A stretch of DNA of 64,000 bases from Acidobacteriota bacterium (GTDB taxonomy: Bacteria; Acidobacteriota; Terriglobia; Terriglobales; Acidobacteriaceae), in NCBI GenBank assembly GCA_021792135.1, contig JAJYVF010000029.1:1-64000 (forward strand), in the 5' to 3' direction. Both the position numbers and the translations under genes were made by a program. The notes beneath the pieces were generated by a model. It worked only from the letters and a program-made list of their open reading frames with translations, had not been told where the DNA came from and ran no database searches. This document shows positions 14,721 through 48,347 of this stretch, in pieces (the first letter of the stretch is position 1; the number at the start of each line of letters is the position of its first letter).

Positions 14721-16340
14721 ATGACAACGATCAGCCGGCGCAGGTTCCTGTCCACTGCGGCTCTGTCGATCGCCGCAAGCCGCCTCAGCGCGCAGCGCGG
14801 GGCACGACCCCGGGTTTCCCTCAGGATTCCCAGCGAAGCTACAGGACCTCACATGCCCGCCGATTTTGTCGGCCTGTCGTATGAGGTAGAGCAGTTTACG
14901 GATCCAACGTTTTTTTCTGCAGGCAATACGGGTCTGATCCGCCAGTTCAGGGCGCTGGCGCCTAAGGGCGTGCTGCGCCTTGGTGGCAACACCAGCGAAT
15001 TTGAATGGTGGAAGGCAACACCCGGCTCACCGGAGCCGAAGCACCCGCAGACGCGAGTGGTCGAAGGCGAACCGAAGCCGCAGTACTATGCGGTGACACC
15101 CGAGGCGGTGCGCAACCTTGCGGCCTTTCTGAAAGCGACCGGCTGGAGCTGCGTGTATGGCATCGGGATGGGAACCAATGCGCCGGAGCGGGCGGCGGAA
15201 GAAGCTGCGTTCGTGGCCGGGACGCTTGGATCGAGCCTGCAATATTTCCAGATTGGCAATGAGGCGGATCTTTTTGGGCGGCACCTGCGCGACCCGAAGA
15301 CGTGGTCCGCGAAGACCTACCTGCAGGAGTGGCTGACGCTGGCGCGTGCGGTGACTGCTCGCGTTCCCGGAGCGAAGTTCGGGATGCCGGATGTGGCTTC
15401 GCATGTCGAGTGGCTGACCGACATTGCCGAGGTGTGGTCTTCGATCCAGAACCCTCCTGACGTGACGACGCTGACTCATCACTACTACTTCGGTGGTCCG
15501 GCCACCAACCCTGAGGTCAACATTCCCAACCTGCTGAAGCCGGCCACCATGGCGAAGGTGCAGGAGACGGCGGATGTTGCGACCGCAGCAGCCCGGAAGA
15601 TGGGCGTCCGGGTTCGCATGACGGAAGGCAACACCTGTTATCGCGGCGGTAAACCGGGGCTCTCGGATGTATTCGCGGCGGCACTGTGGGCGGCGGACTA
15701 TTCTCTGCTGCTGGCCAGCAACAACTACACGGGAGTGAACCTGCACGGCGGCACCGGCAAAACCGTCGCCACCGGCGTCGGCGGTTTTCTTCCCGGAGAC
15801 GTGCTGCTGAAGGAACAGGGCGCGACACCGGAGCAGATCGCCTCTCACCCTCACCCGTTTTACACGCCGATTGCGAGCTTCGGTTCAGAGTACGTGATGG
15901 AGCCGGTTGGGTACGGTCTGAAATTTGCCGGCCGGTTCAGCGGAGCCCATCTGATACCCGGTGATTACTCATCGCAGCTGCAGGAAGCGGGAGTCGATGC
16001 GACGGGCTATGCCGCTCTTCTGCCTGACGGGCATACGGCAGTCATCATTCTGAACAAAGATGCGCAGCAGGACGTGGACCTAACTTTGAACTTTGCCGGC
16101 AAAGGAAATAGCGCAGTCGAAATCGAGACGCTGCGCGCTCCGGCTCTCGACAGTCGAGAAGCCCACATCACGCACGGTCCCACGCGAGGCCGCCATGCTC
16201 GAAACCAGCAAGGCCTGGACGCGACATTTCAGTTCCCGCATTCCGACTGGCCGGCGGTGATTCTCCCCGGCGGCCTCCAGAACGGGAAATTGAGCTTCAC
16301 CATTCCGCGAGCCAGCGGAGTTTGCCTGACTGTCCGCTAA
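14721..16340 (+). CDS. Glycoside hydrolase family 79-like protein, Tat-exported
   Basis: The 539-residue protein matches the GH79 beta-glucuronidase/heparanase group, of which a structurally known member comes from Acidobacterium capsulatum. A Tat-type signal is present (SRRRFLSTAALSIAAS). The (beta/alpha)8 domain carries the likely acid/base Glu181 in QIGNEAD and nucleophile Glu302 in RMTEGNTC, 121 residues apart, a fitting distance. LRLGGNTSEFEWW is the first barrel strand. A C-terminal beta-sandwich (about 440-539) follows. It would release glucuronic acid or related residues from glycans in the periplasm or outside. It is convergent with the catabolic locus at 16350. The ATG lacks a strong ribosome site; TTTAAACT at 14705-14712 could be a -10 box with a very short leader. 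Confidence 0.8.
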   Translation: MTTISRRRFLSTAALSIAASRLSAQRGARPRVSLRIPSEATGPHMPADFVGLSYEVEQFTDPTFFSAGNTGLIRQFRALAPKGVLRLGGNTSEFEWWKATPGSPEPKHPQTRVVEGEPKPQYYAVTPEAVRNLAAFLKATGWSCVYGIGMGTNAPERAAEEAAFVAGTLGSSLQYFQIGNEADLFGRHLRDPKTWSAKTYLQEWLTLARAVTARVPGAKFGMPDVASHVEWLTDIAEVWSSIQNPPDVTTLTHHYYFGGPATNPEVNIPNLLKPATMAKVQETADVATAAARKMGVRVRMTEGNTCYRGGKPGLSDVFAAALWAADYSLLLASNNYTGVNLHGGTGKTVATGVGGFLPGDVLLKEQGATPEQIASHPHPFYTPIASFGSEYVMEPVGYGLKFAGRFSGAHLIPGDYSSQLQEAGVDATGYAALLPDGHTAVIILNKDAQQDVDLTLNFAGKGNSAVEIETLRAPALDSREAHITHGPTRGRHARNQQGLDATFQFPHSDWPAVILPGGLQNGKLSFTIPRASGVCLTVR

Positions 16341-16349
16341 ATATACCGG

Positions 16350-17738
16350 TTACGCCTTCCGCGCGTTGCTGAAGATCTCGACGAGGCGATCGGCGATGAT
16401 TTTGTCCTCGCCCTCTTTGAGTTGCCACAGCGTAAAGCCGAAGGCCTGCGGATTGCGCGGACGATGATGCTCGTGGTGCTCGTCTGACGGATTGGGGTCG
16501 CGACCGCGCATGCCGCCGGCGTTGGATCCCATGGCTCCGATGGCCAGAGGCTTCGTCTCAGCCAGCTGTTTCATCACCTCCGGCCCGGTGATGTCCAGTT
16601 TGGCCGAGTCGATGTGCCAGGAGTAATAAGGGGTTACGTTGCCAAGGGCCTGTGGATTGAACTGACGCGGGAGCGCCGTGACGCCGAAGCGCGCGACCGC
16701 TTTGGAAATAACCGCGGCGCGATCGTCATACCGCTGGATGGATTGGTCGAAGTCCTCGTTGACGAAAAGCTCGAGCGCCTTCAGCAGTCCGAAGATCGTT
16801 TCCTTGCCGACCTTGCAGGGGCGGCCGATGCGGTCTTCCTGGGGGCTCATGTTCAGCAGGGCATAGTGGATGAGCTCTTCCTTGCCAATCAGGACGCCGG
16901 AGGCCTGGGGCCCGCGAATATCCTTGCCGCCGCTGAAGGCGACAAAATCGAAGCCGAGGGCGGGGTATTCCCAGAGCCGCTCCCTGGGAGGGACATCGGC
17001 GGCCGCATCGTTGAAGGTATACAGGCCGTGCGCCTTCGCGATTGCGACAGTTTCGGGCCCGCTGACCTGACCGCCGTCGGACAGGATATTGGTGAAATGG
17101 ATGGCCAGGGTTTTCGGATTGATCGCAGCGATCATCTCTTCGCGCGTCTCGACCTCGACAAGCTTCGCCCCGGTCTGGCGGATCTGGTGATCGAAGGGAT
17201 AGCGGTGGCTCTTCTGGATGATGACTTCGGTCCTTGGGAAATCGGTGACGTTGGGGATGGTGCGGATGCGCGGCTCGAGGTCCTCCGTCATCATGCCCGC
17301 GTAGCCCACGACCAGGGCTGCAGCGGCTCCGCCGGTGACCAGACCGGTATAGCCGGCCGGTGATTTGCAGAGCTTCGCGATGTATTTCCCGGCGGCAATC
17401 TCGAGATCGTCGATGGAGACACAGTGCTCGTTCCCCATGCGGATCAGCTCCATCACCTCGGGGCGCATGACGGAACCGCCGATGACGGTGAGGGTGCCGT
17501 TGATGTTGACCATGGGGGTGAGCCCCAGTTCAGCATAAATATCCCCGGTCGAGCCCAGGCCGCTGGTGATGGGAACGATCTTGTGGCCATCGATGGCATC
17601 TTCGGCCTCAAACATCCTGCGCTTCGAGCCGAAGAGCGAAGCCGCTTTCGCCCGCCAGGGGAAGAAAAGACTCCCGGTCCCGGCGGCGGCTCTGGTCAGG
17701 AAAGAACGGCGGCTCCACGGCAATTCGCGACCCATCAA
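16350..17738 (-). CDS. Tat-exported PLP-dependent lyase, SelA/DgaE-like (paralogue 1)
   Basis: The 462-residue protein has a Tat signal (WSRRSFLTRAAAG) and then a fold-type I PLP domain of the SelA-like group that includes D-glucosaminate-6-phosphate ammonia-lyase (DgaE). The Schiff-base lysine is Lys272 in AFSGGKDIRGPQ, and the cofactor-ring aspartate is in TFNDAAADVPP. GYTGLVTGGAAAAL is the phosphate-binding region. An insertion rich in His (HEHHRPR) near residue 430 is unlike its paralogues. Because Tat exports folded proteins, PLP is probably loaded in the cytoplasm. The RidA-like gene lies 39 bases upstream in the same operon, which suggests that the reaction passes through an enamine/imine. 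The substrate, probably an amino sugar acid, is inferred. It is not a selenocysteine synthase in this setting. Confidence 0.8.
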   Translation of the reverse strand: MMGRELPWSRRSFLTRAAAGTGSLFFPWRAKAASLFGSKRRMFEAEDAIDGHKIVPITSGLGSTGDIYAELGLTPMVNINGTLTVIGGSVMRPEVMELIRMGNEHCVSIDDLEIAAGKYIAKLCKSPAGYTGLVTGGAAAALVVGYAGMMTEDLEPRIRTIPNVTDFPRTEVIIQKSHRYPFDHQIRQTGAKLVEVETREEMIAAINPKTLAIHFTNILSDGGQVSGPETVAIAKAHGLYTFNDAAADVPPRERLWEYPALGFDFVAFSGGKDIRGPQASGVLIGKEELIHYALLNMSPQEDRIGRPCKVGKETIFGLLKALELFVNEDFDQSIQRYDDRAAVISKAVARFGVTALPRQFNPQALGNVTPYYSWHIDSAKLDITGPEVMKQLAETKPLAIGAMGSNAGGMRGRDPNPSDEHHEHHRPRNPQAFGFTLWQLKEGEDKIIADRLVEIFSNARKA

Positions 17739-17777
17739 CAGCTCCTTTTCAGCAATTTGTCTCCCTATTCCTTCACA

Positions 17778-18332
17778 CTAATCGGTTTCGCCTGTGGCCT
17801 GCGGGTTGACCACCAGGGCGCTGCCAACGATTTCGATCAGTGAGTCACCCGGGATCCACTCCACGGCCATGCAGGCGCGTGAAGGAGCTTTGCCGGGGCT
17901 GAAATAGGTCCGGTAGATTTTGTTCAGCGCATCGTACTGCGCCTTGTGGGCATCGAAACGAGCCTTTCCTGTGGGCATGGGAACGCTGTCCGCCAGGGGC
18001 AGGCAGAGAAAGACCTCGAGGTGCAGAATGCTGTCCATCGTGCAGCCGTGGCTTTCGAGGCTCTTCTTCAGAGCGTCCATGGTCCGTGCGACATGCTTTT
18101 CGAAGGGATCGGTGACGAGGACGTGATCTTCCGGCGGATATCCGTCGTTGGAACCGGTTCCGTAGAAATAGTAAATGCCATCGTGGATATGATTGCTGTG
18201 GGGATGGGGCTTCTTCTCGCCCGCCGCTGCGCCAGCCGGGGCCTGCTGCGCGAGGAGCTCCGGAACGCTGCCGGCAACGCCTGCGAGCACGCCCAGGCGG
18301 CTAACGAAACTGCGTCGACTGCTGATCTGCAT
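17778..18332 (-). CDS. Tat-exported RidA/YjgF-family imine deaminase
   Basis: The 184-residue product has a Tat signal (SSRRSFVSRLGVLAG) and one RidA domain (about 45-178). RidA enzymes hydrolyse 2-enamine/2-imine products of PLP enzymes to keto acids and ammonia. The conserved active-site arginine is Arg152 in GKAPSRACMAVEW, and Glu167 sits in LIEIVGSALV. GGGAG lies before the ATG. It is the first gene of a two-gene operon with the PLP enzyme at 16350, the functional pairing expected if RidA clears that enzyme's product. An extracytoplasmic RidA is unusual, since best-known members act in the cytoplasm. Tat export also allows the trimer to assemble before transport. Confidence 0.85.
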   Translation of the reverse strand: MQISSRRSFVSRLGVLAGVAGSVPELLAQQAPAGAAAGEKKPHPHSNHIHDGIYYFYGTGSNDGYPPEDHVLVTDPFEKHVARTMDALKKSLESHGCTMDSILHLEVFLCLPLADSVPMPTGKARFDAHKAQYDALNKIYRTYFSPGKAPSRACMAVEWIPGDSLIEIVGSALVVNPQATGETD

Positions 18333-18534: not shown

Positions 18535-19170
18535 TCAGTCGAGGTGCACCAGTCCGCGCTGCAGGGCGTAGATGGTGGCCTGCGTCCGGTCACGGGCGCC
18601 CATTTTATCAAGCAGCGAGCTGACATGGATGCGAACCGTTTTCTCCGCAATGCCGAGTTCCTCGGCAATCTCGCGGTTGCTGCAGCCGCGGGTAATGCAA
18701 AGCAGGACCTCGGTCTCTCGTGGGGTGAGCTCGACGGCAGGTGTTCGCTCGGCCAGGCGGTCGAGCGCAAGGTGGGGGAAATAGCGAAGGCCGCGGTGGA
18801 CACACTGGATGGCGCTGAGGAGTTCTTCGCCGCTGGCGTCCTTGGTGAGATAGGCCATGGCGCCGCTACGGACGGCGCGGTAGATATCCTCGCTGCCGGA
18901 ATAGTTGGAGAGCACGACGATGCGCGCGTTCGGATATTCACGGCGCAGCCGGGTGATCAGGTCGAAGCCGCTGATGAGCGGCAGGCGGAGATCGAGAACG
19001 ACGACGTCCGGCTCCAGCGACCGATACATGGCCAGGCCCGCCTCTCCGTCGCAGGCTTCACCCACGATCCTGATCTGCGGATGGGCCGAGAGCACGGAAT
19101 GGAGCGCCATCCGCGCGAGAAAGTGATCTTCCACCAGCAGGACACGGATTTCCTTCATATCCCAATCCAC
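18535..19170 (-). CDS. NarL/LuxR-type response regulator
   Basis: The 211-residue protein has a receiver domain (1-125) with acidic pocket VEDH, phosphoacceptor Asp60 in VVVLDLRLP and Lys in AYLTKDASG, followed by a GerE-type helix-turn-helix (about 145-205; LTPRETEVLLCITRGCSNREIAEEL). It overlaps the end of the histidine kinase gene by 16 bases, so the pair is translationally coupled. An ATG four codons further in (19158) is an alternative start. Given the flanking MFS gene upstream and the RidA-PLP operon 200 bases downstream on the same strand, it probably controls this catabolic locus. Confidence 0.9.
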   Translation of the reverse strand: MDWDMKEIRVLLVEDHFLARMALHSVLSAHPQIRIVGEACDGEAGLAMYRSLEPDVVVLDLRLPLISGFDLITRLRREYPNARIVVLSNYSGSEDIYRAVRSGAMAYLTKDASGEELLSAIQCVHRGLRYFPHLALDRLAERTPAVELTPRETEVLLCITRGCSNREIAEELGIAEKTVRIHVSSLLDKMGARDRTQATIYALQRGLVHLD

Positions 19171-20233: not shown

Positions 20234-21532
20234 TCACACAGTATTGCTCTCGAGCGGGGTCTCGGGATGGACCGTCAGCCAGCACAGAGCGCTCAGGATG
20301 GCCAGTGCGGCCGCGACTGCAAAGGAGGTGTTCCAGCCGTAGCGCTGGGCGATCCAGGGGGTAAGAGAGGCAGTTGCCGCTCCGCCGATTTGCCCGCCCA
20401 TGTTGACCATGCTGGAGAAAACGCCGGTGCTGGGACCGGCAATGTCCACCGAAACGGACCAGAAGGAGCTCTGCGAAATGTACAGCGCCCCCGCGCCTCC
20501 CGCGAGAGTGACCCCGGCGAGCGCCGGGTTGTGGACCTGCGCGCCGAGGAAGAGAAAAAGCGCGGTCAGAACCTGAGAGGCGGCGGCCAGCCAGCAGCGT
20601 CCGACGCGGAGCCCAAAGCGATGGGTGAGTTCATCGCTGAGCACGCCTCCTGCCAGGCAGCAGAAGGTCATCGACAGGAAGGGGAGCATGGCGTAGTTCG
20701 CGCTGGATTTCAGGTCCAGCCCGCGCACCTGGGCCATGTAGAGGAAATACCAGCTGAAGAAGATCCAGGCGATATAACCGAAGCTGAAGTATCCCACCAT
20801 GAGAACAGCCAGATCCCGGCGATGGAGGATGGCTCGCCAGGAGATGACCGGTGCCTCCGACGGAGACTGACTGGCAGGGGGATATGTCAGTCCTTCATGG
20901 ATTTCGCGCAGTTCGGCCGGTGACACGGCGGGGTGCTCTTCCGGGGTATCGCGGGAGGTCTGCCACCACACCATGCAGACGGCCAGGCCCACCACTGCAC
21001 TGAACCAGAAGGCAGCGCGCCAGCCGTAACTGGTGATCAGCCACGTGAGCAGGGGAGGCGTGAGGCCGCTGCCCGCGCCGACGCCCGCCAGGATGAGGCC
21101 ATTGATGACTCCTCGTTCTTCCAGCGGGACCCAGCGGGCCACAAACTGATTGGCCGCGGGATAGATGACGGATTCGCCGGCCCCGAGGGCGAGCCGGACG
21201 ATGATCAGAAGCAAAATTGCCTGGCCGATGCCGGTCGGAAGGAGCGCAGTAAAGGCAGTGGCCGCACACCAGGACAGCACACCCAGGGTGAGCACGCGGC
21301 GCGGTCCGAACCGGGCGGCAAGCCAGCCGGCTGGCACCTGGAAACCGGCATAGCCAATCAGGAATGCGCTGAAGATCCAGCCGAGCTGCTGATTGCCGAT
21401 GCCGTATTCGCGGCTGATCTGCAAACCTGTGATCGAAATGTTGGTCCGGTCAAGAAATGCAACGCCGCTCAGGATGAACAGCCAGAAGGCAAGGAAATAG
21501 CGAACGCGGGAGTGAGCGGCCTCCTTCGTCAT
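20234..21532 (-). CDS. MFS transporter, anion:cation symporter (ACS) type, copy 1
   Basis: The 432-residue carrier has twelve predicted membrane helices and ACS-family signatures: LSGVAFLDRTNISITGLQ in helix 1, the GESVIYPAANQFVARW stretch in the middle of the N-half, and FGYIAWIFFSWYFLYMAQ in the C-half. I start it at the ATG at 21532, which aligns with the paralogue at 23915; longer frames upstream add a non-hydrophobic, Arg-rich leader. ACS carriers take up hexuronates, galactonate, glucarate and related sugar acids. The gene heads a minus-strand operon with the two-component pair. A keto-deoxy sugar acid or amino sugar acid is a fitting substrate for this locus, by inference. Confidence 0.9.
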   Translation of the reverse strand: MTKEAAHSRVRYFLAFWLFILSGVAFLDRTNISITGLQISREYGIGNQQLGWIFSAFLIGYAGFQVPAGWLAARFGPRRVLTLGVLSWCAATAFTALLPTGIGQAILLLIIVRLALGAGESVIYPAANQFVARWVPLEERGVINGLILAGVGAGSGLTPPLLTWLITSYGWRAAFWFSAVVGLAVCMVWWQTSRDTPEEHPAVSPAELREIHEGLTYPPASQSPSEAPVISWRAILHRRDLAVLMVGYFSFGYIAWIFFSWYFLYMAQVRGLDLKSSANYAMLPFLSMTFCCLAGGVLSDELTHRFGLRVGRCWLAAASQVLTALFLFLGAQVHNPALAGVTLAGGAGALYISQSSFWSVSVDIAGPSTGVFSSMVNMGGQIGGAATASLTPWIAQRYGWNTSFAVAAALAILSALCWLTVHPETPLESNTV

Positions 21533-22331
21533 CGATGTGGGTTCCCGACGATTACGACGCGTCCAGGGGGCAAGTGCAATATCGTGTCCAACTGGCTCGG
21601 TCCTGCCTTCCAGCGGCACCCCGTCAAACGAGGTTAGCCCCGGCATCTCGCAGGACCTTCGTGACCAGAACGTCGGGAAGACTGGAGAGATCTCGACGGT
21701 TCGCCGGCGCTCTGCTCGCTGCCCAGAAGCCCCGATCTCGGGATCACAGACCTGCGCTGCGGATTTGTGCGTATAGCCTAACAGGTATTTGCCTCGAAGC
21801 GGCGGTCTCGTCGGTGTTGCGCGGGGCTGCGGCGCGGGGGCTGCCAATCGGAGCAGCGGCGGGAACCGCTGCAGATTCCGGGCTGAGGACGGGTCGCCCG
21901 GGGCGAATACGACAAACGCCGATTCGCCAGTTTCGGCATCGGATGTCTATCCCGAAGAGCGCTCTGCCCAGCCCGACGCGCGGCGCAAACGTGCAGCAGC
22001 GCGGGCCTTCTGGTTCGGCAGACTACAGACGGGATTTCCTGCCAGGGCATCTGCCTTATATCCGTGTAAGACGGGAGTCGAATGACAACCGGCGCGAGGG
22101 ATCATGCAATGAGAATGCCGGCGGCTCTGCGCGTCCATGGTGTCTTGCGTCATGCAAGAGACCCAGCACACAGGCCGGGTTGCCGGTGAACGATCATGCC
22201 CAGCACGCAATGGCGTTCATATTAGGATGATTCGGTGCAGCAACCGCTTCATTACTGCGCAACCAGCGTGTCAGAGCGCAGTGCGCGGGTGATGGATGTT
22301 CGGACAAGGTTTCAGTCAGGAGAAACAACAG
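21533..22331. other. Long divergent intergenic region (about 800 bases)
   Basis: The region separates the minus-strand MFS-kinase-regulator operon from the plus-strand rraA-like gene. An open frame covers much of it, but it has an Arg-rich, unlike-protein composition, no ribosome site and no recognisable family, so I do not call it a gene. It likely holds both promoters and operator sites. I could not identify a defined operator by eye. Confidence 0.4.
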
Positions 22332-23117
22332 ATGCTACGTATCCGTTTGTTCCGGAATCGTCGCGAAGTTCCGCTCTTCCTCATCGTCGCTTCGATCGCA
22401 GCGTTGCTACTGGGTATCGCGCATGTCGTGCGCGCGGATGAGCCTCTGAGCGCGGCCGCCTACGCCAACGATCCGGCAATGATGATCGACGCCTATCGGC
22501 ATGTTGAAGTCGCATCGGTATCTGACGCGGTCGAGCAGATCCTGCACGAAAAGCAGTATATGTCGCATCACATGCGGCCGATCTTCCCCGCGAAGTTTGC
22601 CGGATACGCCTTAACGGTGGAGCTCGTGAAAGAGGAAAATCATGATCCCAACGCCCTGAGCGGGATGCTCACGGCGATCGACTCCGGGGCTCCCGGATCC
22701 GTCTACGTGATGAAGGTTCAGGACGGATCCGACATTGCGGGGATGGGTGGATTGATGGGAACAGCCATGTTTGCGCGCGACTTCGCCGGCGCTGTGATCG
22801 ATGGAGGGGTCCGGGATCTGCCTCAGCTGAAGAAAATCGGATTTCCGGTGTTCGCGCTGGGCGTTGTGCCCTCGACGTCAGTCGGGCATTACCGCTTCCG
22901 TGCTGCAAATGAGCCGATCACCTGCGACGGGGTTCCGGTTGCCCCCGGGGATGTGGTCACAGCCGACCAGGACGGAGTGGTCGTGGTTCCTCGCCAGCAT
23001 GCCGCCGAAATTCTGGTTCGGGCACAGCAGCTCGATTACAGTGAGCACTCCATGTATCCGTTCATCGAGAAATACCATTCGATTGAAGAAGCAGTAAAGA
23101 AATTCGGGCGGCTTTAG
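22332..23117 (+). CDS. Exported RraA-family (class II pyruvate aldolase-like) protein
   Basis: The start is the ATG at 22332, with AGGAG nine bases upstream, giving a 261-residue product with a signal peptide or N-terminal anchor (FLIVASIAALLLGIAHVV, then RADEP). The RraA/HMG-aldolase fold follows: the active-site arginine and metal-ligand aspartate are Arg161 and Asp162 in IDGGVRDLPQL, preceded by the GGLMGTAMFARDFAG loop and followed by VPSTSVGHYRF and PGDVVTADQDGVVVVP. Related enzymes cleave 4-hydroxy-2-oxo acids to pyruvate with a divalent metal; 2-keto-3-deoxygluconate has this chemistry. Family members outside E. coli are mostly aldolases or decarboxylases, not RNase E inhibitors. An exported form is unusual and fits a periplasmic pathway. 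Confidence 0.75.
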   Translation: MLRIRLFRNRREVPLFLIVASIAALLLGIAHVVRADEPLSAAAYANDPAMMIDAYRHVEVASVSDAVEQILHEKQYMSHHMRPIFPAKFAGYALTVELVKEENHDPNALSGMLTAIDSGAPGSVYVMKVQDGSDIAGMGGLMGTAMFARDFAGAVIDGGVRDLPQLKKIGFPVFALGVVPSTSVGHYRFRAANEPITCDGVPVAPGDVVTADQDGVVVVPRQHAAEILVRAQQLDYSEHSMYPFIEKYHSIEEAVKKFGRL

Positions 23118-23914: not shown

Positions 23915-25276
23915 ATGACTCATCGGCGGCTGCGGGTCAGATATTTTCTTGGATTCTGGCTGTTTGTGCTGAGCGGTGTGGCATTTCTGGACCGGACGAA
24001 TATCTCCATTGCCGGTCTGCAGATCAGTCATGAATATCATCTCGGCAATCAGGGTCTTGGGTGGATTTTCAGTTCGTTCCTCATTGGCTATGCCGGCCTG
24101 CAGATTCCGGCGGGATGGGTATCGTCGCGCTTCGGCCCGCGCAGCGTGCTGACCCTTGGCGTGCTTTCGTGGGGGGTAACGACCATCCTCACGGCCGTCC
24201 TGCCGCCCACCATCGGACACGCTCTGCTGCTGCTGATCTGCATTCGATTCGCGCTCGGTGCCAGCGAATCCGTGATCTATCCCGCCGCGAATCAGTTCAT
24301 CGCCAGGTGGGTGCCGCTTCGGGAGCGCGGCTTCATCAACGGCCTGATCTTTGCAGGAGTCGGGGCCGGGAGCGGTCTGACACCGCCTCTGCTCAACTGG
24401 CTTATCACGCGCTACTCCTGGCGGTCGGCATTCTGGTTCAGCGCATCCCTGGGCGTAGCGGCGGCGCTTGTCTGGTGGAAGATGGCGCGCGATACGCCGG
24501 AGCAGCACCCGCTGATGTCGATGGCGGAACTGTCGGAAATTCGGAGCGATCTCAACCTCCAGACCGAGCCTCCTCCCGGTGAAAAACCGGTCATCCGCTG
24601 GCACTCAATTGTTCATCGTCGCGATCTGCCGGCGCTGATTGCCTCTTATTTCAGCTTCGGGTACATTGCCTGGATCTTCTTCAGCTGGTTTTTTCTGTAC
24701 ATGGCGCAGGTGCGCGGCTTTGACCTGAAATCGAGCGCCGATTATGCGATGCTGCCGTTCCTGTCGATGACCGTCTGCTGTCTGCTGGGCGGGGTGCTGA
24801 GCGACCTGATTACACGGAAGTGGGGATTGCGCGCGGGCCGGTGTTGGCTGGCTTCGGCCTCGCTGGCAGCAACCGCATTTTTTCTGGTTATCGGTTCGCA
24901 GGTACGCAGCCCTCAGCTGGCAGGCCTTATTCTGGCCGGTGGAGCGGGTGCGCTCTACATCTCGCAAAGCTCTTTCTGGTCGGTCTCCGTGGACATCGCC
25001 GGATCAAATTCGGGGATCTTCTCAAGTATCATCAACATGGGAGCCCAGATTGGCGGGGCAGTAACCGCATCGCTGACGCCGTGGATCGCGCAGCGCTACG
25101 GCTGGACAACTTCTTTCGCGATCGCCTCTGTGCTCGCCCTCGCCAGTGCCGCCCTGTGGATGACGGTCCGCCCCGAGCGTCCTCTTGAAATGAACTGCGA
25201 GCCCGAGATCGGAAGGCAGACAGGAGTCCAGGGCGCAACTCTCAGGCAGGGCGGGGAAATAGGGGGAACCCTGTGA
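23915..25276 (+). CDS. MFS transporter, anion:cation symporter (ACS) type, copy 2
   Basis: This 453-residue carrier is a close paralogue of the product at 20234 along its whole length. Shared segments include LSGVAFLDRTNISIAGLQ, SESVIYPAANQFIARWVP, GVGAGSGLTPPLLNWLIT and FGYIAWIFFSWFFLYMAQ. Twelve membrane helices are expected. The ATG at 23915 follows GGAG and AAGGGG. It lies 112 bases before a PLP-enzyme gene on the same strand, as copy 1 lies upstream of a PLP-enzyme operon on the other strand. The two copies could take up different sugar acids or serve different conditions. Confidence 0.9.
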   Translation: MTHRRLRVRYFLGFWLFVLSGVAFLDRTNISIAGLQISHEYHLGNQGLGWIFSSFLIGYAGLQIPAGWVSSRFGPRSVLTLGVLSWGVTTILTAVLPPTIGHALLLLICIRFALGASESVIYPAANQFIARWVPLRERGFINGLIFAGVGAGSGLTPPLLNWLITRYSWRSAFWFSASLGVAAALVWWKMARDTPEQHPLMSMAELSEIRSDLNLQTEPPPGEKPVIRWHSIVHRRDLPALIASYFSFGYIAWIFFSWFFLYMAQVRGFDLKSSADYAMLPFLSMTVCCLLGGVLSDLITRKWGLRAGRCWLASASLAATAFFLVIGSQVRSPQLAGLILAGGAGALYISQSSFWSVSVDIAGSNSGIFSSIINMGAQIGGAVTASLTPWIAQRYGWTTSFAIASVLALASAALWMTVRPERPLEMNCEPEIGRQTGVQGATLRQGGEIGGTL

Positions 25277-25388: not shown

Positions 25389-26717
25389 ATGAAACTCATC
25401 TCCGACTGCAGTCGTCGTTCGTTTCTGTCCAGAATAGGAGCCGCGGCCACCCTCCTGGGGGCGGGCGGACTGCGGGGCGCTGTTGCGGAGGGGCAAAGCT
25501 CGGATTTCGGCAAGGAGAGCAGCCGGGCCAGGCCGCGTCTGACCGGACTGGGTTCGACGGGCGATATCTACGCTGAGCTTGGTGTCAACACGGTGGTCAA
25601 CGCTGCCGGAACCTACACCGCGCTGGGCGGCTCGCTGATGTCGCCCGAGGTGATGGAAGTCATGCGCCTGGGCAACACCGGATTCGCGGATATTAACGAA
25701 CTTGAGGTTGCGGCGGGAAAGAAGATGGCCGAGCTGTGCAGGATGCCTTCCGGATACACCGGTCTGGTGACGGGAGGAGCCGCTGCGGCACTGCTCGTGG
25801 GCTACGCCGGAATCCTGACGGGAGACAACAGACAGTACATCCAGCAGATTCCCGACCTGACGGGAATGCCGAAGACGGAAGTGATCATTCAGAAAAGCCA
25901 TCGCTATGCTTTCGATCATCAGATTCGGCAAACAGGAGTGAAGCTAATCGAGGTCGAAACTCGCGATCAGCTGCTCGCAGCCATCAATCCCAGGACGGCC
26001 GCAATGCACTTCACCAACTATCTGAACGGCCTGGGCCAGATCAAGGTGGACGAGTATGTGCAAATTGCGAAAGAGCACAACCTGCCTGCCTTCAACGACG
26101 CGGCTGCCGATACCCCACCGATTTCGCGGCTCTGGAAATACACCGAAATGGGCTATGATCTGGTGACCTTCAGCGGCGGCAAGGATATTCGCGGCCCGCA
26201 GGCGGCCGGACTGCTGATGGGCAAGGAGGACCTGATCCGCTGCGCATTGCTCAACATGAGCCCCAATGAAGATACGATTGGACGGGCTTCCAAGGTTGGC
26301 AAGGAAGAGATCTGCGGGATGCTGAAGGCCATTGAAATGTTCGTTGCCTCTGATCAGGCAGCAATTCTGAAAGGCTATTACGCGCAGCTGGGTCAAATCG
26401 CGCGCACTCTCGGCAGGATTCCCGGGGTGACAAGCGATTACGAATACAACCCCGAGGAGATCGCCAACAATACGGTCAGGATGGCTGTGAGCTGGGATCC
26501 GGCGAAGATCGCTCTGACAAAAGATCAGGTGACGCAGCAGCTGGCTGCGACCCGGCCGTACTCCATACGGCTGGCCGATGACGGGGACGGCTCCGGGAAG
26601 AACCTCTCTTCCAATCCGCGGATCCAGATCACGGCCTGGATGCTGCAGCCGGCACAGGAGAAGCTCATCGCCGACCGGCTGGCGGAAATTCTTCGCTCCG
26701 GGCAAAAGGCCGCCTGA
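25389..26717 (+). CDS. Tat-exported PLP-dependent lyase, SelA/DgaE-like (paralogue 2)
   Basis: The 442-residue protein has a Tat signal (CSRRSFLSRIGAAATLLG) and a SelA-like PLP domain very close to paralogue 1. The Schiff-base lysine is Lys265 in TFSGGKDIRGPQ; the ring-binding aspartate is in AFNDAAADTPP; the phosphate loop is GYTGLVTGGAAAAL. AAGGAAG precedes the ATG. It lacks the His-rich insertion of paralogue 1. The neighbouring upstream gene is MFS copy 2, and the TonB-dependent receptor follows. There is no RidA gene directly beside this copy; the exported RidA proteins encoded at 17778 and 31932 could serve it. An amino-sugar acid ammonia-lyase role is inferred from the DgaE relationship and the locus. 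Confidence 0.8.
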   Translation: MKLISDCSRRSFLSRIGAAATLLGAGGLRGAVAEGQSSDFGKESSRARPRLTGLGSTGDIYAELGVNTVVNAAGTYTALGGSLMSPEVMEVMRLGNTGFADINELEVAAGKKMAELCRMPSGYTGLVTGGAAAALLVGYAGILTGDNRQYIQQIPDLTGMPKTEVIIQKSHRYAFDHQIRQTGVKLIEVETRDQLLAAINPRTAAMHFTNYLNGLGQIKVDEYVQIAKEHNLPAFNDAAADTPPISRLWKYTEMGYDLVTFSGGKDIRGPQAAGLLMGKEDLIRCALLNMSPNEDTIGRASKVGKEEICGMLKAIEMFVASDQAAILKGYYAQLGQIARTLGRIPGVTSDYEYNPEEIANNTVRMAVSWDPAKIALTKDQVTQQLAATRPYSIRLADDGDGSGKNLSSNPRIQITAWMLQPAQEKLIADRLAEILRSGQKAA

Positions 26718-27235
26718 TCGCGCTTCTCCGTGCAGCGGCTCCCGGGGGACGAGGGGGCCTTTCAGCCCTGTGAGGCGCAACGCCTTTAGCCGGAACGGGG
26801 CTGACGGCTGTTTGTATCCGCCTCGAGCGGGGCCGCGCGCCGATGGGCAGCACGGCCGGACCCCCTCCGGACTCTCTCTCCGGAACTCGGCAAGGGCTTA
26901 ATAGCTGTTCCCCCAAAGCCGGAGGCGCTCAGCCTGACCGGGACTTGATTGCAGGTTCCCTGCTGAGGGGCAAAATCTAGGGCATCCGTCTTAGAAGCAA
27001 CCAAGCCAAAAGGCAGATGACAGCGAATCCGAAATGTAATGAAATGACTCTCCTGGTAGCCAATCCTGAAGCCAATTAAACGAAAGGGCCCTGCAAGGCC
27101 GATCGAAGCCCCGTTCTCCAGATACAGCGGTGTCGGCCCAAGACATCTTCCGGATTGGTTGGCCAGCGTATCACGACAGCACAAGGACGTAACGAAAAAT
27201 GGTCTGACGCAGAACACCTCAGGAGGTCTCAGGTG
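26718..27235. other. Intergenic region before the TonB-dependent receptor (about 520 bases)
   Basis: No gene is supported here. The first half is GC-rich; the second half is more AT-rich (from about 26990), as expected for a promoter and leader of a strongly regulated receptor gene. AGGAGGT at 27221-27227 is the ribosome site of the next gene. I see no defined terminator or riboswitch fold by eye. Confidence 0.4.
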
Positions 27236-30200
27236 GTGAAGTCCTTTGGGAAGGCTCTGACTGCATTCGCTGTGTGGATCGTCGTCATATGCGCTGCGAC
27301 TATCGCACACGCCGATATCACCGGTTCGATTTCCGGAATTGTGACTGACCCGACCGGGGCCGTCATTCCGGGTGCCACAGTGGTTGCGACCGCACTCTCG
27401 ACCAACGTACAGCACACCACGGTTACCGACGCGAAAGGCTTCTATGCCTTTCCGGCGCTCAACGTCGATGAATATCGCGTGACTCTCACCCAGCCGGGGT
27501 ATGAAGAGTTTATCGTCAACAACGTGAAGATCAACGCCAACTCGGCAGTGCGGATCGACATCAGGCTTACGCTCGGCAAGGTAACGAATACGGTCTCAGT
27601 GCAGAGCGACGCCCTGCACATCGAGACGCAGAGTACGCAGATGGGCGAGGTTATTGATGGGAAACAGATGACGTCCGTTCCTCTGAACGGCCGCTCCTTT
27701 ATCGATCTGCTGGCGCTGCAGCCGGGAGTTTCGCCTTACACGGGCAACGCCACCACGGAGGGCGTGGGCGCCTATACGATCTCGGGAGATCAGTCGAACG
27801 GCAGCCAATCCGTCAACGGTGGCCGATCCGGCTCGAATGGGTACATGGTCAACGGAGCCGATGCGGAGGAGGGCGTTCATAACGGCGCCGCGATGATCCC
27901 CAACCTGGATTCGATCGCACAATTTCGGATTATCACCAACAACTTCGATGCCGAATACGGAAACTTCAGTGGCGGCCAGGTCAACGTCGTTACAAAGTCC
28001 GGGACCAACCGGATCCACGGAGACCTCTTCAACTTTTTGCGCAACACGGACCTCGATGCCAGGGACTACTACTCCCCCACGCGCGGCGTGTTCATTCAGA
28101 ACCAGTTCGGGGGGACAATCGGTGGGCCGATTCGGAGAGACAAGGTTTTCTTCTTTGGCGATTATCAGGGAACGCGGCAGATTGTCGGGCAAACCCAGTT
28201 CTTCCCCGTACCATCGCTGGCCGACCGAACCGGAAACCTCATGGATCAGGCATCGGCTCTCCTGGGTTCCGCTCCGGCCAACGGTGGCCAGGGGGTGGTG
28301 GGGAACTACTGGGCTGGAATCCTGTCGCAGCGACTCGGATATCCGGTAACCTCGGGCGAGCCATATTACACGACCGGCTGTACCAACTCCGGCCAGTGCG
28401 TCTTCCCGAACGCGGTGATTCCCCAGAGTGCGTGGTCCCCTGTGGCGGCGAAAACCCTTCATTACATCCCCCAGCCGAACTTAAACACTCTCTCCGGGCC
28501 CGTCTTTCAAACCTCGGCATATAACAGCCATCTGACGGATGACAAAGGCGGGATCCGTCTGGATACCAATACCCGATTCGGCGCTCTGTTCGGCTATTAC
28601 TTCGCTGACAAATTCTCTACGAATAACCCGTATGATCAGGGCATCAATATCCCGGGGTTTGCGGATCAGAACATCGGCCTGACGCAGATGATCAACCTGG
28701 GCCTGACCACTACCTACGGGCCCGAGCTGGTCAACGACATCCGAATCGTCTATCTGCGGGATGTGAATAAAACAGGGATTCCGCAGCAGGGAACCGGGGT
28801 TTCGCTGGCGTCCCTCGGATTCAACACGCCCTGGAACAGCACCGGCGGGCTCGGCAATATCAACCCCGCCATGGTGGGCGTTCCGTCGTTCTTCTTCAAC
28901 AATTACGAGTTTGGGCTGGCGCAGGATGCGCTGAAGCAGTTCAACAACACAATCCAGGTGATCGATAACGTCACTCGCGTGGTGGGAACCCATACGGTAA
29001 AGTTCGGCGTGGACTTCCACTACGACCAGATTAATGAAAGAAACTACGATGACGTCAACGGCGCGTTCGGGTTCAACGGCGCGGAGACCGGTCTGGATTT
29101 TGCCGATTATCTGATCGGCGCGCCTGATAACTTCACTCAGGCCAGCCAGCAGCTGCTGGATTCGCGCGCACAATACTACGGCGCATACGGGCAGGACTCC
29201 TGGAGAATCACCCCTGAGCTGACGTTCAATTACGGTCTCCGGTACGAGATCATGACGCCCTGGTACGATACGCAGAACAAGCTGGAAACGGTAATCCGCG
29301 GAGAGCAGTCCAAGGCGTTTCCGGGCGCTCCGCTTGGTCTGGTGGTTCCTGGCGATCCCGGCGTGCCGCGCACGCTCTCCCCTGTGAAGTACACCAACTT
29401 TGCTCCCAGAATCGGCTTCGCCTTCGCGCCGAACGTCAGCGGCGGGGTTCTTGGAAGGCTGCTGGGAGGCCCGGGCAAGACCAGTATCCGCGTAGGTTAC
29501 GGGATCTTCTACAGCGCGATTCAGGATGCGACCGGCTTCGTTGAAGTCGGCGACGCGCCATACGGACTGTATTACTCTTCCCCCGTTCCTTCCCTGCTGG
29601 ACTCGCCCTTCATCGATCGCCCAACGGGAAACTTTGAAGGCATCAAATTCCCGTTCAAGTTTCCGCCCACCAACGTTTCTCCGCAGCATCCTGATACCTC
29701 GTTCAACTGGGTACAGGCAACGCCCATCTCGGGCTCGGATTACTTCTATCCGCACAATGTCATTCCTTATGTCGAGGAATACGAGCTGTCGCTGCAAAGA
29801 CAGATTGGAACGGCGACAGTGGTTACCGCCAGTTATGTTGGGAACGCGGGGCGGCATCTGCTGACGTTTGAGGATTCCAATCCGGCAAACCCCGCCCTTT
29901 GCCTTCAGCTCAGCAATCCCGCAAGCGTAGCCGCCGGATCGCAGACCTGCGGTCCCTTTGGGGAGGACAACGTCTATACGTTGCCGAATGGCAATACGGT
30001 GAACGGTACTCGTCCCATGGGCCTCAACTTCGGCAGCAATCCCTATATGATGACGGCGGCCACGTCGAGCTTCAACTCGCTGCAGGCGAGTGTGCAGCAT
30101 ACCGAAAAGTACGCCAATTTTCTGATTGGCTACACCTGGGAAAAGTCGATTGATAACGGATCGAGTGCCTTCGACGCAACGAATCCCTATAACCCCGCTC

Positions 30201-30787
30201 TCAGCCGCGGTCTGTCGATCTTCGATGTTCCGCAGGACCTGGTGGCCAGCTACACGGTTGATCTGCCATTTAACAATCTGGTCGGCCATAATGATAATGG
30301 CGCTCTGAGCCGCGTCACGACCGGCTGGCAGATCTCCGGAATCTCGTCGTTCGTGAGCGGGCAGCCGGTCCAGCTGTCGGAGAGCGATGACCGCTCGCTT
30401 ACGGGAACCTTCAACGATACAGTCGACGAGCCCAGCTACGCCAATAACGGCAGCCGGCTATTTGTGAACAAGAACCCGCGCAGCCAGCAGTCGTACTTTA
30501 ATCCCGGCTACTTCGTTCCCGAGCCGCTGGGACAGGTGGGCAACGTTATGCGGCGTTACTTCGTCGGGCCCGGGATCCTCAATTCGGATATGGCCTTGCT
30601 CAAGGATACGAAGTTGACGGAGACGAAAGAGCTGCAGTTTCGTGCCGAGGCCTTCAACGCCTTCAATCACGCCCAGTTCAATAATCCATCGGGGAATGTG
30701 AATAACACAGGTGCCGGAGGATTTGGCTATGTGACGTCGGATCAGGGTCCGCGCATTATGCAGATGGCATTGAAACTCCTGTTCTAA
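27236..30787 (+). CDS. TonB-dependent receptor, Oar-like, with carboxypeptidase-regulatory domain
   Basis: The 1183-residue outer-membrane protein begins at a GTG eight bases after AGGAGGT (a GTG three bases earlier is also possible). It has a signal peptide (FAVWIVVICAATIAHA), an N-terminal CarboxypepD_reg-like domain (about 25-105; GSISGIVTDPTGAVIPGATV), a plug domain with QMTSVPLNGRSFIDLLAL and FDAEYGNFSGGQVNVVTKSG, and a beta-barrel of some 900 residues ending in an aromatic residue (MALKLLF). Such Oar-like proteins are multiplied in acidobacteria and probably import oligosaccharides or other large substrates. Its position inside the catabolic locus suggests it brings in the glycan fragments used there. 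No surface lipoprotein of the SusD type is next to it. Confidence 0.92.
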   Translation: MKSFGKALTAFAVWIVVICAATIAHADITGSISGIVTDPTGAVIPGATVVATALSTNVQHTTVTDAKGFYAFPALNVDEYRVTLTQPGYEEFIVNNVKINANSAVRIDIRLTLGKVTNTVSVQSDALHIETQSTQMGEVIDGKQMTSVPLNGRSFIDLLALQPGVSPYTGNATTEGVGAYTISGDQSNGSQSVNGGRSGSNGYMVNGADAEEGVHNGAAMIPNLDSIAQFRIITNNFDAEYGNFSGGQVNVVTKSGTNRIHGDLFNFLRNTDLDARDYYSPTRGVFIQNQFGGTIGGPIRRDKVFFFGDYQGTRQIVGQTQFFPVPSLADRTGNLMDQASALLGSAPANGGQGVVGNYWAGILSQRLGYPVTSGEPYYTTGCTNSGQCVFPNAVIPQSAWSPVAAKTLHYIPQPNLNTLSGPVFQTSAYNSHLTDDKGGIRLDTNTRFGALFGYYFADKFSTNNPYDQGINIPGFADQNIGLTQMINLGLTTTYGPELVNDIRIVYLRDVNKTGIPQQGTGVSLASLGFNTPWNSTGGLGNINPAMVGVPSFFFNNYEFGLAQDALKQFNNTIQVIDNVTRVVGTHTVKFGVDFHYDQINERNYDDVNGAFGFNGAETGLDFADYLIGAPDNFTQASQQLLDSRAQYYGAYGQDSWRITPELTFNYGLRYEIMTPWYDTQNKLETVIRGEQSKAFPGAPLGLVVPGDPGVPRTLSPVKYTNFAPRIGFAFAPNVSGGVLGRLLGGPGKTSIRVGYGIFYSAIQDATGFVEVGDAPYGLYYSSPVPSLLDSPFIDRPTGNFEGIKFPFKFPPTNVSPQHPDTSFNWVQATPISGSDYFYPHNVIPYVEEYELSLQRQIGTATVVTASYVGNAGRHLLTFEDSNPANPALCLQLSNPASVAAGSQTCGPFGEDNVYTLPNGNTVNGTRPMGLNFGSNPYMMTAATSSFNSLQASVQHTEKYANFLIGYTWEKSIDNGSSAFDATNPYNPALSRGLSIFDVPQDLVASYTVDLPFNNLVGHNDNGALSRVTTGWQISGISSFVSGQPVQLSESDDRSLTGTFNDTVDEPSYANNGSRLFVNKNPRSQQSYFNPGYFVPEPLGQVGNVMRRYFVGPGILNSDMALLKDTKLTETKELQFRAEAFNAFNHAQFNNPSGNVNNTGAGGFGYVTSDQGPRIMQMALKLLF

Positions 30788-30838: not shown

Positions 30839-30869
30839 GACCACGGTTATCCGGTACGGAGACGTGTGG

Positions 30870-31853
30870 ATGTTGTCCATTCCGGCAAGACACTGCGGGT
30901 TACCAGGTGCGGCAGCTCTTTTCTTCTTTCTCTTCGGTCCCGGGCTGCTGCATCCACAACGGGCGGGCCAAAGGAGTGAGTTGAAGGCGCTATCGCCATC
31001 ATTCTGGAATGTGATCCGTCGCGATGCGAAGCTGACGCAGGTGGCATCCGGGTTCGGTTTCACCGAAGGTCCGATCTGGGATGAGTCGGGCTACCTGTGG
31101 GTCAGCGACGAAACCCTCAACAAGATATACAAAGTCGATGTTGCCACAGGTCAAAAGCAGGTGGTCATTGCTCTGGGCGACCCCGACGGAAATACGTACG
31201 ACAGGAATCAACGAGTCCTTGATTGTGCCAGCGTGCTGCGGGCTGTCATCCGCCTCTCCCCTGACGGTAGTCACTACACCATTGTGGCGGATCGATTTCA
31301 GGGCAAACGACTGAATTCTCCCAACGATGTCGTGCTGGGGCCGGATGGGGGCATTTACTTTACCGATCCGACATCGGACCTGCCCAAGGGCCAGAAGCAG
31401 GAGATTCCGTTCAAGGGGGTCTATCGAATCGCCAGGGACGGACAGACTCAGGTTCTGGTCAGGGATCTGAAGGAACCCAATGGTCTTGCCTTTTCCCCTG
31501 ACGGAAAGCGGCTGTATGTTGACGATTCTACAGAGCGAAACATCTGGGTCTATGACTTCCACTCCGATGGTACGCTGACCGGTGGCCGGGTCTTTGGTCT
31601 TGAGCCTGGCGGCTCCGAGGACGGTGTTCCTGATGGAATGAAGGTTGATATGCACGGAAACCTCTATGTGGTTGGACCCCGAGGCATCTGGGTCTGGACT
31701 GCGAAAGGGCAGCACATTGGTACGATTGTTCTGCCGGAACAGCCTGCCAATCTCACCTGGGGAGACAGGGATTACTCGACGCTCTATATAACAGCAGAGA
31801 CATCGGTATATAAGATCCGGACAAAGGAGCGTGGGTACGTGCCCTGGCTCTGA
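30870..31853 (+). CDS. Exported SMP-30/gluconolactonase-family protein (copy 1)
   Basis: The start is the ATG at 30870, eight bases after GGAG; a GTG at 30864 is too close to it. The 327-residue product has a signal peptide (LPGAAALFFFLFGPGLLH) and a six-bladed propeller of the SMP-30/gluconolactonase family. Metal-ligand segments are GFGFTEGPIWDESG (Glu), LNSPNDVVLGPDG (Asn) and EPNGLAFSPDGKRLYVDDS (Asn and Asp). Members open sugar lactones to aldonic acids. It is about two-thirds identical by eye to the product at 39378. Placed with PQQ-type dehydrogenases, which make such lactones, its likely role is hydrolysing them in the periplasm. Confidence 0.88.
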   Translation: MLSIPARHCGLPGAAALFFFLFGPGLLHPQRAGQRSELKALSPSFWNVIRRDAKLTQVASGFGFTEGPIWDESGYLWVSDETLNKIYKVDVATGQKQVVIALGDPDGNTYDRNQRVLDCASVLRAVIRLSPDGSHYTIVADRFQGKRLNSPNDVVLGPDGGIYFTDPTSDLPKGQKQEIPFKGVYRIARDGQTQVLVRDLKEPNGLAFSPDGKRLYVDDSTERNIWVYDFHSDGTLTGGRVFGLEPGGSEDGVPDGMKVDMHGNLYVVGPRGIWVWTAKGQHIGTIVLPEQPANLTWGDRDYSTLYITAETSVYKIRTKERGYVPWL

Positions 31854-31931: not shown

Positions 31932-33164
31932 ATGAACAAGGTTGCCAAATACTCGGCTTTCTTTGTGACGCTGATCATGAGCGGCTCCCCTTCCGTCCTG
32001 GTGGCCCAGAGCTCGATGCTGCAGGCGATCAGGCCAGCCGGTGCCCCGGTGTCCTCCGCGCCCTACAGCCCCGGGATTCTGGCAGGCGGTACACTGTATG
32101 TTTCGGGCCAGGGCAGTCTCGACGCAGAAGGCAAGCATCCCGCCGACTTCCCGGATCAGGTCCGCCAGGCGCTGCACAATGTGCGCAATACTCTCAAGGC
32201 CGCGGGCATGGACTTCGGCAACATCACCTGGCTGAATATCTATCTTGTCAGCAGCAGCGACATCGATGCCATGGATAAGGTGTACTGGGGGGAGATCGGT
32301 CCTGATCCGCCTGCACGCACCGTGCTTGTTGTGGCGGCGCTGCCGAATCAGGAGCGGATTGAAATCAACTGTATCGCGGTGAAAGACCGGCGGACCCGGC
32401 ACAGCATCTGGCCAACAGGATGGCCCCGCGGGAGGAGAGCAGATCCGCCGGCGGTTCAGGCGGGAGATGTTGTTTATCTGTCGGCTCAGAGCGGCCGGGA
32501 TCCGGTTACCGGAGAAGAGCCCGGTACATTCCCGGAAGAAATGAGGCAGGCGCTCGATCATGTTCAGACCATCATGGCGGCTGCCGGTCTGAGCATGAAG
32601 AACGTTCTCTGGGTGAACCCTTACATGAGCGTGAGCGGGCAGTACGACGCGATGGGCAATGTGTATAGGACCTTTTTCGAGTTTGGCAATACGCCGGGAC
32701 GGGGGACCATCCAGGTGATGGCACTGCCGCACCAGGAGCACATCGTTTTCAGCTGCATCGCGGGAACGGATCTTGCGAAGCGCAGGGCGGTTCGTCCGAG
32801 AAATATGCCACCCAGCGCTACAGCCAGTCCGGGAATCCTGTACGGGAACACTCTGTACCTTTCGGCCAAGGATGGGTTCATTCCTGGCCAGGGAATTGTT
32901 ACTCAGGATTTCGACCTGCAGCTACGGCAGTCCATGCGGAACCTTTTGGATGGACTTGAGGAAGTCAACATGTCGTTTTCCGACGTTGTCTTCTCCACCG
33001 TCTACCTGCGCCAGATGCAGGATTATGGCCGCATGAACGCCCTCTACAGAACCTTCTTCAGCGGCACGCTTCCAGCACGCACCACCCTGCAGCAAAACGA
33101 GGATTTCGGCGCGGAGGACGCCGAACAAATCTCGTTTATCGCCGTGAAGACAGGCAGTCACTGA
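31932..33164 (+). CDS. Exported protein with three tandem RidA domains
   Basis: The 410-residue protein has a signal peptide (YSAFFVTLIMSGSPSVLVAQ) followed by three RidA/YjgF domains at about 30-152, 165-280 and 290-407. Each keeps the active-site arginine in the same context: Arg129 (DPPARTVLVVAALP), Arg257 (NTPGRGTIQVMALP) and Arg383 (GTLPARTTLQ). The third domain has lost some of the usual core (QQNEDFGAEDAEQ in place of the VEVA-LP strand), so its site may be weaker. RidA normally forms a homotrimer with active sites between subunits, so this chain may fold as a one-molecule trimer. It lies 16 bases before the third PLP-enzyme gene. I infer it deaminates enamine/imine products of the exported lyases. 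Confidence 0.85.
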   Translation: MNKVAKYSAFFVTLIMSGSPSVLVAQSSMLQAIRPAGAPVSSAPYSPGILAGGTLYVSGQGSLDAEGKHPADFPDQVRQALHNVRNTLKAAGMDFGNITWLNIYLVSSSDIDAMDKVYWGEIGPDPPARTVLVVAALPNQERIEINCIAVKDRRTRHSIWPTGWPRGRRADPPAVQAGDVVYLSAQSGRDPVTGEEPGTFPEEMRQALDHVQTIMAAAGLSMKNVLWVNPYMSVSGQYDAMGNVYRTFFEFGNTPGRGTIQVMALPHQEHIVFSCIAGTDLAKRRAVRPRNMPPSATASPGILYGNTLYLSAKDGFIPGQGIVTQDFDLQLRQSMRNLLDGLEEVNMSFSDVVFSTVYLRQMQDYGRMNALYRTFFSGTLPARTTLQQNEDFGAEDAEQISFIAVKTGSH

Positions 33165-33180
33165 ACCAGAAGGAGAAGAG

Positions 33181-48168: not shown

Positions 48169-48347
48169 GAGGAATTTTCCGGGGCGAACTTCAGCGGCAA
48201 TTTCGCACATCCTGGCAGCGGGTCCGCTGGCCCCAGCGTATTGTAATGCGGGGCAGACCGGTTTTTGCGGTATCACACGAGGTGGCGTCTCCGAGCTGTT
48301 GTGAAAGCCCACGCTGCAATTCCGGGTGAATTGTTATCTTTACTCTT

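Follow-up and report, generated by a model that had tools for sequence, protein, structure and literature searches.

A conserved gene pair for a Rid protein and a SelA/DgaE-like PLP enzyme, both with Tat-like signals, in Acidobacteriaceae

Background

The described system closest in logic to the gene pair analysed here is the ong pathway of Pseudoalteromonas, which comprises the deacetylase OngB, the PLP lyase OngC, converting glucosaminate into KDG and NH3, and the RidA protein OngD (PMC9537276). The ongD gene is essential for growth on GlcNAc1A, its role being given there as unknown, and OngB together with OngC yields KDG in vitro without OngD (PMC9537276), so that the Rid may speed the conversion rather than enable it. 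This pathway and our pair have in common the deamination of phosphate-free glucosaminate, proposed for the latter, and a Rid gene in the cluster. However, OngC is a fold-type III enzyme and the ong steps are predicted to be cytoplasmic in the text available, whereas the PLP enzyme studied here is of fold type I and, like its partner, bears an export signal.

A second relative is D-glucosaminate-6-phosphate ammonia-lyase (DgaE). The H163A variant of DGL keeps a high activity and appears to release free enamine into solution; His163 was proposed to avoid a cytotoxic intermediate, and RidA was named as breaking down such enamines (PMC9529869). Established cases of holo PLP enzymes that leave in folded form via Tat are PvdN and PtaA of Pseudomonas, both of which, unlike our enzyme, are involved in siderophore tailoring; the available text mentions no Rid partner for them (PMC6206403). 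Finally, a periplasmic complex of L-amino acid oxidase and RidA in Chlamydomonas and a lao cluster in Gluconacetobacter have been described (PMC5053998). These resemble our pair in placing a Rid beside an exported amine-releasing enzyme, but this enzyme is a flavin oxidase and not a PLP enzyme, and the text available does not say that the RidA of Gluconacetobacter is exported (PMC5053998). The Chlamydomonas complex also makes the initial annotation of our locus, in which RidA was said to act in the cytoplasm, not quite right.

In the portions of the literature accessible to our search, no exported bacterial RidA was recognised, and a word search of a survey of the Rid family (PMC4433059) found none of the terms “signal peptide”, “periplasm”, “secreted”, “exported” or “Acidobacteria”. 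Each element of the exported pair thus has a precedent, while neither the combination nor its recurrence nor the pathway context that it appears to have was found in print in the same sources.

Results

The RID1-PLP1 pair

The window, i.e. the whole stretch of 64,000 nucleotides that was analysed, contains on its minus strand two adjoining genes, the Rid gene standing first:

RID1, 17778..18332, minus strand: Rid (YjgF/UK114) protein of 184 aa with a Tat-like signal, containing an insert of 18 residues and retaining the catalytic Arg and Glu
PLP1, 16350..17735, minus strand: SelA/DgaE-like fold-type I PLP enzyme with a Tat-like signal, retaining the Schiff-base Lys but neither His162/163 nor the phosphate Arg cluster of DgaE

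The likelier start of PLP1 is ATG 17735, preceded six bases upstream by AAGGAG, since this ribosome site is better than that of the listed alternative, TTG 17738; the gap between the two genes is therefore 42 bp and not 39. The two-gene operon of the initial annotation is right as to strand and adjacency, but the run is longer: five genes on this strand, MFS(21532)-HK-RR-RID1-PLP1, end with the pair, and this series is divergent to an RraA gene. A scan for promoters and terminators gave nothing exceeding shuffled sequence.

Both N-termini display SRRSF and a hydrophobic stretch, as read by pattern and by eye, and the genome encodes one TatC above the cut-off. A loose Tat pattern was matched by 8 of 31 hand-picked ORFs of the window, the RraA among them being atypical. 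The eight include homologues of glycosidases (GH79 and GH38), hence Tat-like signals are not limited here to cofactor enzymes and Tat alone argues little. The suggestion that both proteins need folding or cofactor loading before export suits the PLP enzyme, for which PvdN and PtaA are precedents, better than the Rid, as Rid proteins require no cofactor.

Family assignment of the two proteins

PLP1 exceeds the cut-offs of PF00266 and PF03841. The best PDB match of its predicted model is DgaE (7lc0), and Cap15, an O2- and PLP-dependent enzyme, is the second PDB relative by sequence and fold. PLP1 shares with DgaE the predicted fold, the Schiff-base Lys, a GKE motif and, in most rows of the alignment, R or K at the position of the carboxylate Arg226. 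It differs by its export signal, its Rid neighbour and the loss of the histidines and phosphate arginines described next. The PLP-binding Lys is kept in all aligned rows, at chain residue 213 (Lys-217 in the numbering of PMC9529869). Conversely, His162/His163 were found in 0 of 57 acidobacterial family rows, PLP1 reading NILSD there, and the phosphate-binding Arg301/332/346 are replaced by Y/A/W in PLP1; these arginines are not kept as a set, single ones persisting in some other rows.

A true DgaE is therefore rejected for PLP1, which with 88.8 bits also stands far under the NF047797 cut-off of 600, and so is SelA (TIGR00474, 23.1 bits for a cut-off of 267.9). The score against selA_rel (TIGR01437), 133.1 bits, is also under the cut-off of 385.3. 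The model matches both DgaE and SelA, which we take to be of fold type I, and not a fold-type III lyase of the OngC kind. From fold and family, PLP1 is a putative lyase, in support of the initial designation.

RID1 belongs to the Rid/YjgF/UK114 superfamily (PF01042, 42.9 bits for a cut-off of 27.3), and the top structure matches of its model (pLDDT 86.9) are RutC and other Rid structures. It is not a member of the RidA subfamily, for which it scores 34.5 bits against a cut-off of 106.25 (TIGR00004). Its Arg aligns with that of Rid relatives; this residue, R122, is invariant in our alignment A1 and is presumably the catalytic one.

Conservation of the pairing

Contigs were scanned with PLP1, yielding 26 loci, all labelled Acidobacteria except one labelled only “bacterium”; one locus (L032; L numbers denote loci and G numbers genomes) is cut inside the gene, leaving 25 evaluable. 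A RID1 relative lies directly upstream of PLP1 in 20 of these 25, the match at L040 being partial, at a contig edge. The adjacent Rid is missing in the other five (L016, L025, L028, L031, L038). RID1 was not found in the four genomes searched among them, three giving no match and one a 40% match that corresponds to a RID2, a related type described below, located elsewhere. In genome G215, whose PLP1 lacks a RID1, a different Rid, Sec-like at its N-terminus, was observed just upstream of PLP1 and divergent from it (L149, 4981-5511, minus strand). Between the stop codon of the Rid and the likely start of the PLP gene lie 23 to 68 bp in 25 rows including the window, at least two of which repeat one genome. 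An in-frame RR motif, again judged by pattern and eye, is present in 20/20 RID1 whose 5' end is complete (out of 22 read, the window among them; L033 and L036 are cut) and in 25/25 PLP1 relatives from the scanned loci, in agreement with the Tat signals initially assigned to both proteins.

In a set of 149 genomes of the phylum, 31 had a match, and the best 37 of 58 match rows, from 15 genomes, were used, the 21 weaker ones being dropped. A PF01042 gene occurs within 3 kb of 13 of these 37 SelA-like genes, against 0.41 expected, and 12 of the 13 are on the same strand. In a set of 150 genomes of the family, with thresholds of at least 209 bits for RID1 and at least 552 bits for PLP1, which leave out more distant PLP paralogues, RID1 was counted in nine genomes and PLP1 in 13, all nine RID1 being directly upstream of PLP1 (Fisher 8.6e-12 for co-occurrence, kinship ignored). 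Nineteen further genomes of the family have a weak Rid match, upstream of a PLP2-type gene in 11 of them and not in the other eight. A chance neighbourhood is rejected on the basis of the locus scan, the phylum excess and the nine of nine family genomes. The pair is real, conserved and functionally linked; the link between Rid and PLP enzyme drawn in the initial annotation is well supported by this conservation, and that idea was right in outline, within a larger gene set and with a more specific likely chemistry.

On a PLP tree of 59 rows, 36 are paired, 14 unpaired (the DGAE row being assigned there by us) and nine not evaluable, and pairing is scattered, with at least 11 changes for a shuffled mean of 12.3. 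The loci were picked by similarity to PLP1, and the tree and locus counts are therefore not a survey. We also considered the loss of His163 as a strict correlate of Rid pairing. It does not track pairing, because it is common to paired and unpaired acidobacterial members, and a Rhizobium pair has both the histidine and the Rid. In that Rhizobium pair, on plasmid NZ_CP125653 (L137, 7409-9188), a RidA gene lies directly upstream of a SelA_rel PLP gene, a closer relative of DgaE, within a run of ABC transporter genes that includes an allantoicase-like one. Unlike the window pair, neither of its proteins shows an export signal, and the enzyme keeps His162/163 and two of the three phosphate arginines.

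Several Rid types adjoin SelA-like genes

Four types of Rid were found beside SelA-like genes: RID1, with the 18-residue insert; RIDx, short and with a Tat signal; RID2, without the insert; and RID3, with three domains and a Sec-like signal. The last is represented in the window by a second pair of the exported type (31932-34461):

RID3, 31932..33164, plus strand: single chain with a Sec-like signal and three Rid domains, each of which has the Arg
PLP3, 33181..34461, plus strand: SelA-like enzyme with a Tat-like signal, 16 bp behind RID3

RID3 possibly joins in one chain what is usually a trimer of Rid proteins. Long Rids resembling it were also seen in L155, L158, L082, L083 and L085. The RID2 type occurs in a quinoprotein-Rid-PLP-MFS run in L144, L145, L147 and L148, partly in L143 and L146, and in L153 with a weak Rid of 24 bits; L152 has such a run but lacks a Rid between the quinoprotein and the PLP gene. 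The RR motif is present in 11 of the 12 RID2 read (L153 is the exception); for four of the 12 (L154, L161, L162 and L163), the fetched stretch contains no PLP gene. The Arg taken as catalytic is found in every aligned Rid partner, including each RID3 domain, while the Glu is lost in domains 2 and 3 of RID3 and in the RIDx of L037. A second SelA-like paralogue stands beside RIDx, with Q or D at the position of DgaE Arg226 (L079 9661-11325, L081 8966-10915, L086 6169-7779, L136 13710-15308); the aligned ones from L079 and L086 have a C-terminal extension of about 100 residues.

An independent recruitment of all four lineages was not upheld by a Rid tree (28 rows, quick method), in which RID1 is nested inside RID2, both group with RIDx (support 93) and RID3 stands apart; it is thus clear only for the Tat-type Rids on the one hand and RID3 on the other. 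On a PLP tree of 66 rows, the six RID2 partners that were placed form one group, and PLP2 of the window is nearest to them by path yet grouped with PLP1.

Rids that look exported are not restricted to pairs. Among the fetched Rid loci that are not adjacent to a SelA-like gene, export seems likely from the N-terminus in 12 of 40, compared with 12 of 12 adjacent ones, the latter judged by eye and not blind; the former count, from seven genomes (G024 in part), was 12 by pattern, from which the artefact L108 was removed and to which L100 was added by eye. Two Rids with a Tat-like signal, L100 (1491-2090, minus strand) and L107 (1521-2093, minus strand), have no SelA-like match within 3 kb.

Gene neighbourhood

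The following genes surround the two pairs in the window:

14721..16340, plus strand: GH79-type beta-glucuronidase homologue with a Tat-like signal; convergent neighbour whose membership in the unit is uncertain
18535..19170, minus strand: LuxR-type response regulator, directly upstream of RID1, an order shared with L020
19155..20201, minus strand: HisKA_3 sensor histidine kinase
20234..21532, minus strand: MFS transporter (start ATG 21532), best NCBIfam match the D-galactonate transporter group TIGR00893, under cut-off
22296..23117, plus strand: RraA-like protein (class II pyruvate aldolase family) with an N-terminal signal-like stretch
23915..25276, plus strand: second MFS transporter, same group as 20234..21532
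25389..26717, plus strand: PLP2, SelA-like paralogue with a Tat-like signal, 52% identical to PLP1, no Rid adjoining
27155..30787, plus strand: outer membrane beta-barrel with a CarboxypepD_reg domain
30864..31853, plus strand: SMP-30/gluconolactonase-like protein with a signal-like N-terminus
36005..37633, plus strand: quinoprotein like acido-empty-quinoprotein group A, under that cut-off, with a signal-like N-terminus
39306..40391, plus strand: second SMP-30/gluconolactonase-like protein
40544..42190, plus strand: second quinoprotein

Both quinoproteins are under the cut-off of TIGR04528 and one passes TIGR03075; the term “empty-quinoprotein” was not found in the literature searched. A relative of these quinoproteins heads the Rid-PLP-MFS run in L144, L145, L147, L148 and L153. 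Glycosidases surround the cluster, namely GH79 (14721-16340), GH38 (45664-48312) and a fucosidase (PF01120, 53699-55618), and possibly feed it with sugars from glycans.

RraA, MFS, quinoprotein, lactonase, deacetylase and BBE genes recur across loci. The order in Paracidobacterium acidisoli (L020) is MFS, RraA, MFS, HK, RR, RID1, PLP1, quinoprotein, DUF4380, PLP3, and a longer stretch (L158, genome G183) additionally has cupin, RID3, SGL and OMP genes, i.e. much of the window's own content. On pACIX902 of Granulicella tundricola the run is MFS-HK-RR-OMP-RraA-PLP-RidA-PLP-deacetylase-lactonase-BBE oxidase, in which RraA, both PLP enzymes, RidA, deacetylase and lactonase begin with signal-like stretches and the annotated BBE start shows none. 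Seven distinct loci (L079, L081, L083, L086, L090, L091, L136) have a deacetylase gene close to SelA-like genes, L081 directly after PLP1. None was found within the window; elsewhere in the genome one is located at C35:8324-9553, with another SelA-like gene at a distance of about 9 kb.

Discussion

From gene order, conservation, signal motifs, predicted folds and the state of active-site residues we infer a substrate, a release of enamine, a role for the Rid and a location. On balance, we lean towards the pair being a unit working outside the cytoplasm, in which an exported ammonia lyase acts on a phosphate-free 2-amino-aldonate of the glucosaminate type and its enamine product is hydrolysed by the Rid. 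PLP1 would be synthesised in the cytoplasm, take up its PLP there and leave as a folded protein via Tat. It would then strip water from a non-phosphorylated 2-amino-2-deoxy sugar acid to give an enamine, as DgaE does on the 6-phosphate. This enamine would probably be set free, because His-163, the proton donor of DgaE, is absent, and the co-exported Rid would convert it (or the imine) into a 2-keto-3-deoxy acid and ammonia. The substrate could be made by neighbouring exported products, a quinoprotein or BBE oxidase followed by a lactonase, and in relatives a deacetylase, and the product might be cleaved by the RraA-type aldolase and imported by the MFS carrier. By their residues, the exported enzymes resemble natural His163-less versions that may act on a phosphate-free substrate; if such a lyase frees its enamine, a partner Rid would be understandable. 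The proposed substrate is read from the neighbour genes only, among which the window offers no deacetylase. Several observations speak against this reading: the five PLP1 loci without an adjoining Rid, the RID2-type runs in which the Rid is missing (L152) or weak and devoid of the RR motif (L153), the loss of His163 irrespective of pairing, the Rhizobium pair that has both His and Rid, the scores of PLP1 under the DgaE, selA_rel and SelA cut-offs, the quinoprotein scores under that of TIGR04528, the export-like signals of non-adjacent Rids, and the formation of KDG without OngD in the ong system.

That the substrate is instead another beta-hydroxy amino acid, e.g. D-threonine, D-serine or cell-wall derived amino acids, with the role of the Rid unchanged, seems rather unlikely to us: OngC is also active on D-serine and D-threonine (PMC9537276), but the neighbours of the pair point to sugar acids, with SGL lactonases, quinoproteins, a galactonate-type MFS and a glycosidase homologue. 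The same neighbourhood bears on the nature of the reaction, as RraA aldolase, lactonase, galactonate-type MFS and deacetylase fit a lyase yielding a 2-keto-3-deoxy acid and, with DgaE as the best match, make it distinctly unlikely that PLP1 would be a PLP-dependent oxidase using O2 like Cap15, or another exported enzyme that releases amine, with the Rid hydrolysing its imine. Such an oxidase would accord with the second rank of Cap15 among the PDB relatives by sequence and fold, and with the published association of an exported L-amino acid oxidase with RidA (PMC5053998).

The Rid could also be exported as a chaperone or as a protein binding nucleic acids or ligands, hydrolyse no enamine and have only the operon in common with PLP1. 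Several roles have been ascribed to Rid proteins (PMC9537276), and the solitary exported-looking Rids of L100 and L107 would agree with this, but it is made highly improbable by the catalytic Arg of all aligned partners, including every RID3 domain, and by the fact that Rids of at least two lineages adjoin one enzyme family. Signals that do not function in Tat export, or proteins that remain on the cytoplasmic side, are likewise highly improbable: the RR motifs were judged by pattern and eye, but they occur without exception in the 20 RID1 and 25 PLP1 sequences, and a TatC is present.

Conclusions

Beyond the exported lyase and its Rid, a wider reading is tentatively put forward, according to which Acidobacteriaceae might possess a whole phosphate-free pathway of amino-sugar oxidation outside the cytoplasm, composed of C1 oxidation, lactonase, in some members deacetylase, PLP ammonia lyase, Rid, RraA aldolase and MFS import. 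In it, a lyase without internal proton donor would hand free enamine to a dedicated co-exported Rid, a role taken by two or more Rid lineages, including the single-chain form with three domains. The published remark that DgaE may have retained His-163 so as not to release a harmful enamine (PMC9529869, in the text available) would thereby become a testable evolutionary trade between an internal proton donor and a partner enzyme. The pair may also provide a handle on the open question, raised by the ong pathway, of what makes a RidA gene indispensable for the catabolism of GlcNAc1A. If true, PLP ammonia-lyase chemistry and the clean-up of its enamine, so far mostly known inside cells, would be placed outside the cytoplasm in soil bacteria.
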